Below are positions 39,434 to 45,558 of a DNA stretch of 64,000 nucleotides, piece after piece. Within the stretch, counting starts at the first letter, position 1; each line of letters begins with the position of its first letter. Made by a program: the position numbers and the translations under genes. The stretch covers positions 1 through 64,000 of the forward strand of contig NZ_JADQBY010000020.1 in the NCBI RefSeq assembly GCF_016278385.1, read 5' to 3'. The stretch comes from Methanolobus sp. (GTDB lineage Archaea > Halobacteriota > Methanosarcinia > Methanosarcinales > Methanosarcinaceae). Under the pieces are notes generated by a model. That model saw nothing but the letters and a program-made list of their open reading frames with translations, did not search any database and was not told the origin of the DNA.

Positions 39434-39801
39434 TCACTGTGCTTCAACAGGTATCTGTACCTCGGTCATAAGTTTTTCCTCGGGAACCTCATTCGGATCG
39501 TTAAAGTAAAGTGACCTTGAAGGGCCTGCTATCCGAAATCCGCTCTCCTCCATGCATTCAAATAAGCGGGTATAGACAACACTCTCTTCCTGATAAGGTC
39601 CTTGTAGATCGTTGAAACAACCTTTGCAGCCGGGAGTGTTGTCAGGTAAAACCCCATCCACGAAAGAGTACGTATTTTGCTACCTCTTTCTATCTGGTCA
39701 TAAGTATAGCAACGATAATTTGTGAATGCATCCTTTTCCTCGGGCACAAGAAGACCTTTCCTGTCATAGAGGCGAAGAACTTTAGGGGTCAATTGTGTCA
39801 T
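39434..39801 (-). pseudogene. Broken MerR-family regulator with GyrI-like domain
   Basis: Two out-of-frame parts of one gene. The first (to ~39529) encodes a MerR helix-turn-helix (LTPKVLRLYDRKGLLVPEEK, NYRCYTYDQIERGSKIRTLSWMGF). The second, ending at 39434, encodes the end of a GyrI-like effector domain (GPYQEESVVYTRLFECMEES, GFRIAGPSRSLYFNDPNEVP). About 120 residues between them are missing compared with the usual ~270-residue layout, and the first few residues of the helix-turn-helix domain are missing. It lies 16 bases outside the left 146-bp inverted repeat, so it was probably damaged by the same rearrangements. Confidence 0.75.
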
Positions 39802-44654: not shown

Positions 44655-44898
44655 GGTTTTTCACAACTTCCAGTATATATCATTGTATTTTTTATTTATT
44701 AACAGTGGTTGTTAGAATTTAAAATAGATTGTGTATGATGGGTTAGCAGTATTTATTCAGCTCTGAATCCTTCAAAGGCTGATGAAAAAGATAATGTACA
44801 CCTTTTAGTTTTCCTTTATTTATTTTCCCTTCTTTTCTCAACGTTAATGATATCACAGCGATTACCGTGAGCGATATACTTGTTGCAAAGCCGGATGT

Positions 44899-45558
44899 TC
44901 AATTATGTTCTTCACTGCTACCACCTGTTCCTTCTGCTATTAAAGAATTGAACAGTTTTTCCGCCATTTCCGGCATATTATCTTCACTTCGGTCATACAG
45001 GCTAACATCCTCAATGTTCAGTATGGTACCTTCTGTGTTTTTACAGGACATACAGGTACTGAAGTTAAGCACAATGCTATCTTCAATATATGAGGGTTCT
45101 GAATGACTCATCATTGATTATGGGTCAAAGTCATTACTGCTATATTCGTTCCACTCATTGTAGATATCTTCATGTTGCCCTGTATGGCAGTTTCCGCAAA
45201 GTTCTGCAGATATGTATGATTGTGGTATTGCTTCAGAAGGGGTTGTGATATGTGAGTCAAAACCCTCCATCGGAGGCTGGTGACATATTTTACACTCTGG
45301 TGCTTCCAGCACCACCTCTCCATACTATCTGCTGTAAAGGTGTGATGTACTGGCGCCATGACATCGAAAACATGATTCTACACTCGGTTTATTACTTATA
45401 ACTGTTTTAGTGAAGTGAGGAGATGTATCCCATGCATCATATTCTCCCGAATGGCAGGTTTTACAATCTCCTGTAAATGCCGCATTTACAGTAGTTACTG
45501 ATGTAACTGTCAATATAAGAGCAATGAAAATCCTCAGCGCCAACATCATACATATCAC
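44899..45558 (-). pseudogene. Multiheme cytochrome c gene with in-frame TAG and TAA
   Basis: One continuous frame of 220 codons. It starts with a signal peptide (LALRIFIALILTVTSVTTVNA), then CKTCH and CFRCH, an in-frame TAG (45325-45327), CKICH and CGNCH, an in-frame TAA (45118-45120), then CMSCK before a final TGA. If TAG were decoded (as pyrrolysine, an option in Methanosarcinaceae), the product to TAA would be a 146-residue exported tetraheme cytochrome. The conserved heme motifs on both sides of TAG show that the gene was recently intact. The coding quality beyond TAA suggests a once longer protein. Without proof of readthrough I call it a pseudogene. CcmE for heme attachment lies at 21327. 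Confidence 0.72.

Follow-up and report, generated by a model that had tools for sequence, protein, structure and literature searches.

Nearly all established pyrrolysine sites lie in methylamine methyltransferases. The methyltransferases MtmB, MtbB and MttB keep a single in-frame UAG in different species and genera, in genomes that have the pyl genes; they are enzymes of the cytosol whose active site contains pyrrolysine. The cytochrome c family described here likewise carries one in-frame UAG across species and genera, with pyl genes in the genome, but it is an exported heme protein, and Met, Glu or Asp can occupy the site. One copy lies in the window, i.e., the 64,000-nucleotide stretch of Methanolobus sp. 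DNA that we analyzed (contig NZ_JADQBY010000020.1, positions 1 to 64,000).

The UAG genes named in the papers that we read are those for methyltransferases, transposases, a TetR regulator and Thg1 (PMC1914089, PMC2933860, PMC3639795, PMC8211752); a cytochrome of a methanogen is not among them. Thg1 of Methanosarcina acetivorans, the UAG transposases and the TetR gene MA2902 are, like the cytochrome, UAG genes outside methylamine metabolism, and the pyrrolysine residue of Thg1 is not essential (PMC2933860). However, the UAG of Thg1 occurs in one species and those of the TetR and transposase genes in one to three, and they seem to be products of drift within single species or small sets of species, whereas the cytochrome UAG occurs in seven species of two genera.

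MmcA of Methanosarcina is also an exported multiheme c-type cytochrome from the same archaeal family (PMC9084895), but it has seven hemes and belongs with the Rnf complex, whereas the cytochrome here has nine or ten motifs; the two are likened by description, not by sequence. No rnf genes were seen in the cytochrome neighbourhoods that we read. NrfA-type and OcwA-type multiheme cytochromes share common Pfam domains with the family and a CxxCK motif in most members, although their similarity to it is low. The Pfam models Cytochrom_C552 and Cytochrome_C7 score above cut-off, NCBIfam nitrite reductase models score far below theirs, and solved multiheme cytochromes give weak matches only. Two AlphaFold2 models had mean pLDDT values of 43 and 50 and were set aside.

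We know of no earlier conserved pyrrolysine site outside methylamine chemistry. Our literature check, outside which falls a 2025 Science paper reportedly on an archaeal pyrrolysine code, returned no earlier report of a pyrrolysine cytochrome. If read as pyrrolysine, the cytochrome UAG would be the first such conserved site known to us, in an exported, heme-binding protein and in two genera. Annotation pipelines can be expected to split UAG genes of this type, or to drop them as pseudogenes. Because M. bombayensis is cultured and genetics exist for Methanosarcina, the question of whether pyrrolysine was ever kept for something else is directly testable.

A decaying cytochrome gene in the window

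The window locus is a dead, decaying copy of a gene for a cytochrome, a predicted electron carrier of the cell surface, with several disabling lesions relative to intact orthologues. Its features are the following:

44824 to 45558, minus strand: whole multiheme cytochrome c remnant (pseudogene), from the start region to the C-terminal anchor remains, by alignment with intact orthologues and gene neighbourhood
45484 to 45549, minus strand: N-terminal hydrophobic signal sequence, by translation and alignment
45451 to 45465, minus strand: heme motif 1, CKTCH, from the sequence
45358 to 45372, minus strand: heme motif 2, CFRCH, from the sequence
45325 to 45327, minus strand: in-frame TAG, kept in six intact homologues of two genera, by homologue alignment
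45214 to 45324, minus strand: possible PYLIS-like RNA element, the 111 nt directly 3' of the TAG, from low synonymous change and folding z
45280 to 45294, minus strand: heme motif 3, CKICH, from the sequence
45184 to 45198, minus strand: heme motif 4, CGNCH, from the sequence
45118 to 45120, minus strand: TAA, a lesion private to the window copy; every intact orthologue has a sense codon there
45040 to 45054, minus strand: CMSCK, what is left of heme motif 5, a conserved CxxCK, by orthologue alignment
44964 to 44965, minus strand: in-frame deletion junction, the break exact to within a few codons, by orthologue alignment
44899 to 44901, minus strand: TGA, second private stop, from the sequence and orthologue comparison
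44824 to 44898, minus strand: C-terminal transmembrane anchor remains (TSGFATSISLTVIAVISLTLRKEGK), in frame past the TGA, by comparison with G002

The initial annotation had described a single frame that runs from a signal peptide through CKTCH and CFRCH, crosses the TAG, and continues through CKICH and CGNCH to the TAA. This layout is correct on the minus strand, with candidate starts at GTG 45558 or ATG 45549/45546. The coding-like sequence with CMSCK that it had pointed out past the TAA is real as well, and runs to the TGA at 44901-44899 and then into TSGFATSISLTVIAVISLTLRKEGK. By contrast, the proposal that decoding of the TAG would give a complete 146-residue tetraheme protein is ruled out by alignment with full-length orthologues, which are three times longer. 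The deletion has removed 208 codons relative to G002 and 210 relative to G016, and five heme motifs are gone with it. The window copy is a pseudogene because of the TAA, this deletion of 208-210 codons and the TGA, and not because of the TAG. A pyrrolysine candidate and a fresh pseudogene had been offered as alternatives; they are not, since pseudogene holds for the window copy and pyrrolysine candidate for the family.

The window copy is the sole match to the family in its own genome (G000). Intact orthologues (G002, G016, M. bombayensis G010, M. vulcani G025, G007, G019 and G001) are 429-459 residues long; each has nine or ten CxxCH/K motifs and ends in a transmembrane anchor at the C-terminus. 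The features of an exported multiheme cytochrome c are present, namely a signal peptide, several CxxCH motifs, and Ccm maturation genes in the genome. In most family members CxxCK replaces CxxCH at heme motif 5; the segment bearing this motif is deleted in M. bombayensis and in the four species with ATG at the TAG column. The locus is syntenic across all Methanolobus copies, flanked by the genes of a small zinc-finger protein and, at the opposite end, a Kef-type antiporter. Two small conserved genes lie between cytochrome and antiporter in most species and are absent in the window.

The cytochrome gene is often lost within Methanolobus. A much more decayed copy, with several stops and shifted frames, occupies the same syntenic place in G005 (L095, C1:2039946-2040359, minus strand). 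Near the window cytochrome, a 90-residue ORF (39529-39801, minus strand) matches only part of a 282-residue G007 protein and therefore looks truncated, a sign of further decay there. Loss of cytochrome maturation was considered as a cause of the decay and rejected, as PF01578 (Ccm) proteins are present in 32/32 genomes checked, including that of the window.

The TAG column in two genera

In the intact orthologues of G002, G016 and G010, the only stop codon inside the gene is a single TAG, whose position is shared by all three. A search of 112 family genomes added three TAG homologues from one genus, which we call Methanosarcina-like because its PylRS catalytic domain is about 83% identical (counted on the alignment) to solved Methanosarcina PylRS. 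With the window's genome, seven species of two genera have TAG at this column. Identity between the Methanosarcina-like TAG proteins and those of the Methanolobus genomes G002 and G016 is about 40%, and the contexts of the column are ..KWDR-TAG-YANV.. and ..LYSR-TAG-YGEV.., respectively. In intact genes the TAG is at codon 76-79, between heme motifs 2 and 3 and 11 residues before motif 3, and the intact TAG frames, of 429-513 codons, contain no stop besides it. The cytochrome frame of G066 (L209) lacks the usual end of its sisters (...RPGK-TAA) and runs on for about 55 residues; N stretches are nearby.

The initial annotation had asked which residue homologues carry at the TAG, and the answer is mixed. 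Besides the seven TAG species, four Methanolobus have ATG, the codon is GAA, GAG or GAT in paralogues from Methanolobus and genus g8, and in genera g3 and g5 the segment around the column is missing or divergent. Because the column is shared by six otherwise intact homologues of two genera, the TAG is more than chance, and its conservation makes the family a good pyrrolysine candidate. As judged from the alignment, the TAG is older than the decay of the window copy and is not its lesion. One g8 paralogue (L194, G084) has a TAG where other members conserve a Trp, at a position three columns ahead of the site, together with an early TGA, and is probably a broken copy.

Selection on the region after the TAG was assessed from those of its codons that differ by a single change. 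Among these, nonsynonymous changes were far below the neutral share in 5/5 pairs (p 7.5e-8 to 2.4e-32). The dN/dS after the TAG was 0.15 for G002-G016, 0.13-0.19 for G010 against the ATG species, and 0.25-0.31 within the Methanosarcina-like trio, compared with 0.13-0.21 for pairs of ATG genes. Therefore, the region after the TAG appears to be translated and selected.

In the gene tree, one Methanolobus clade consists of G000, G002 and G016, all with TAG, and a second of M. bombayensis (TAG) and four ATG species. The TAG genes of the Methanosarcina-like genus are separated from these clades by the deepest branch and are closer to the Glu-bearing paralogues. With gaps treated as missing data, a TAG ancestor needs two changes and a Glu ancestor three, so that we lean toward TAG as the ancestral state at the site. 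The G016 cytochrome (L089) clusters with those of G000 and G002, whereas G016 rpoA1 is placed elsewhere in Methanolobus, with other species; this conflict suggests that the UAG gene has passed from one Methanolobus species to another.

How the UAG is read

Taken together, we are fairly confident that the window contains the decaying gene of an exported, membrane-anchored 9-10-heme cytochrome c, in whose family the UAG would be an inherited sense codon read as pyrrolysine. On comparative grounds, the UAG of the intact orthologues very probably specifies pyrrolysine instead of a stop; this identity of the residue is what we infer from the machinery described below.

It is very improbable that the TAG is a plain nonsense mutation and that all TAG copies are pseudogenes being lost. 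The window and G005 copies are indeed broken, the gene is frequently lost in the genus, and another gene of the window's genome, for a phosphoesterase, carries a private TAG. However, six diverged homologues share one TAG at the same codon with no other stop or frameshift and with strong purifying selection after it, whereas the true pseudogene of the family, in G005, shows several stops and shifted frames.

Equally hard to sustain is the idea of two proteins, an N-terminal diheme part ending at the UAG and a C-terminal multiheme part restarted just 3' of it. An ATG or GTG does stand four codons past the TAG in the Methanolobus TAG genes, but the Methanosarcina-like genes offer no start until 32 codons after the TAG, beyond heme motif 3, and the stretch before it is still conserved. 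The second part would also lack the signal peptide needed for export and heme attachment, and the ATG and Glu homologues are single proteins.

Least probable of all is insertion of an ordinary amino acid by another suppressor or near-cognate tRNA: PylRS is encoded in the TAG genomes, and so is its cognate CUA tRNA in those searched for it, and M. acetivorans made 20-30% full-length product bearing pyrrolysine from a gene into which a UAG had been introduced (PMC2933860).

Methanolobus belongs to the Methanosarcinaceae, the family whose UAG decoding the initial annotation had raised. The pyrrolysine machinery that it had named as the thing to look for is present in the window's genome, where PylS, PylB, PylC and PylD score above NCBIfam cut-offs and pylT is found; pylBCD were checked in this genome only. 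PylS occurs in 27/27 Methanolobus and in all three Methanosarcina-like TAG genomes. The pylT gene was found in each of the four Methanolobus TAG genomes searched (G000, G002, G016 and G010) by BLAST with an M. barkeri pylT query.

TAG also ends the DUF1638, grpE and dnaJ genes, as had been noted, and in a 211-kb sample of the window's genome it is the stop of 16/153 ORFs of at least 150 aa (~10%). A genome-wide pyrrolysine code, with every TAG decoded, is rejected on these counts. Since UAG still terminates other genes, the code at UAG is ambiguous, like that described for Methanosarcina (PMC2933860).

RNA after the TAG and cytochrome output

Among G000, G002 and G016, synonymous differences in the 35 codons after the TAG number 7/70, against 202/473 elsewhere (permutation p < 0.0002), with ordinary amino-acid divergence in the same codons. 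The most stable consensus-fold window is directly 3' of the site in all four gene groups, a result confounded by sequence conservation, and synonymous-codon shuffles were therefore used instead. In these, the first 37 codons after the site fold beyond expectation (z < -2) in 5/7 TAG genes, with z about -2.1 for the window copy and no excess in G002 and G065, and in 0/13 genes with ATG or GAA/GAG/GAT at the site (Fisher p 0.0014, relatedness ignored). Some Glu-bearing g8 genes reach z of about -1.9. A repeat shuffle of the six intact TAG genes agreed: the site window stood out in 4/6, and the remainder of these genes yielded a single such window. No shared RNA structure was found by covariation among the TAG genes, and an Rfam PYLIS search on the TAG loci gave no match; Rfam PYLIS_1 has two matching sites in the window's genome, both mtmB-type. 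These results are a weak hint that the RNA after the UAG is a PYLIS-like signal. The PYLIS element is helpful, but not required, for pyrrolysine proteins.

If the UAG is read as pyrrolysine, a ribosome in the intact species would reach it at codon 76-79, and tRNA-Pyl(CUA)/PylRS would decode it part of the time. The 9-10-heme, membrane-anchored cytochrome would then be finished and exported, and the Ccm system (PF01578 present) would attach its hemes, whereas ribosomes stopping at the UAG would presumably leave a diheme fragment with no anchor. Output of full-length cytochrome may therefore track pyrrolysine supply. The residue at the UAG is probably tolerated rather than catalytic, because relatives have Met, Glu or Asp there; as the site accepts these residues, nothing shows that pyrrolysine is required.

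The UAG may have been retained by drift while suppression made it tolerable, or because it couples the amount of cytochrome made to the supply of pyrrolysine. In the more specific form of the latter, the UAG and the adjacent RNA element would be a translational switch tying the full-length anchored cytochrome to pyrrolysine supply. We regard this as a speculative and rather unlikely proposal; if it were true, surface electron transfer would be built mainly during methylamine use.

Two other TAG codons of the window's genome, both outside the window, may be mentioned. On contig C3, a DHH/RecJ-like phosphoesterase gene (L102:6503-7543, minus strand) has TAG where 29/29 homologues have Gln (CAG); this TAG, private to the genome, could have arisen recently, as a codon for pyrrolysine or as a nonsense mutation, or else be an error of sequencing. 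On contig C4 (L103:11052-14375, plus strand), TAG is the stop codon of arlI, a gene of the archaellum motor, and the reading frame is open from there into arlJ, such that reading of the TAG would give an ArlI-ArlJ fusion.
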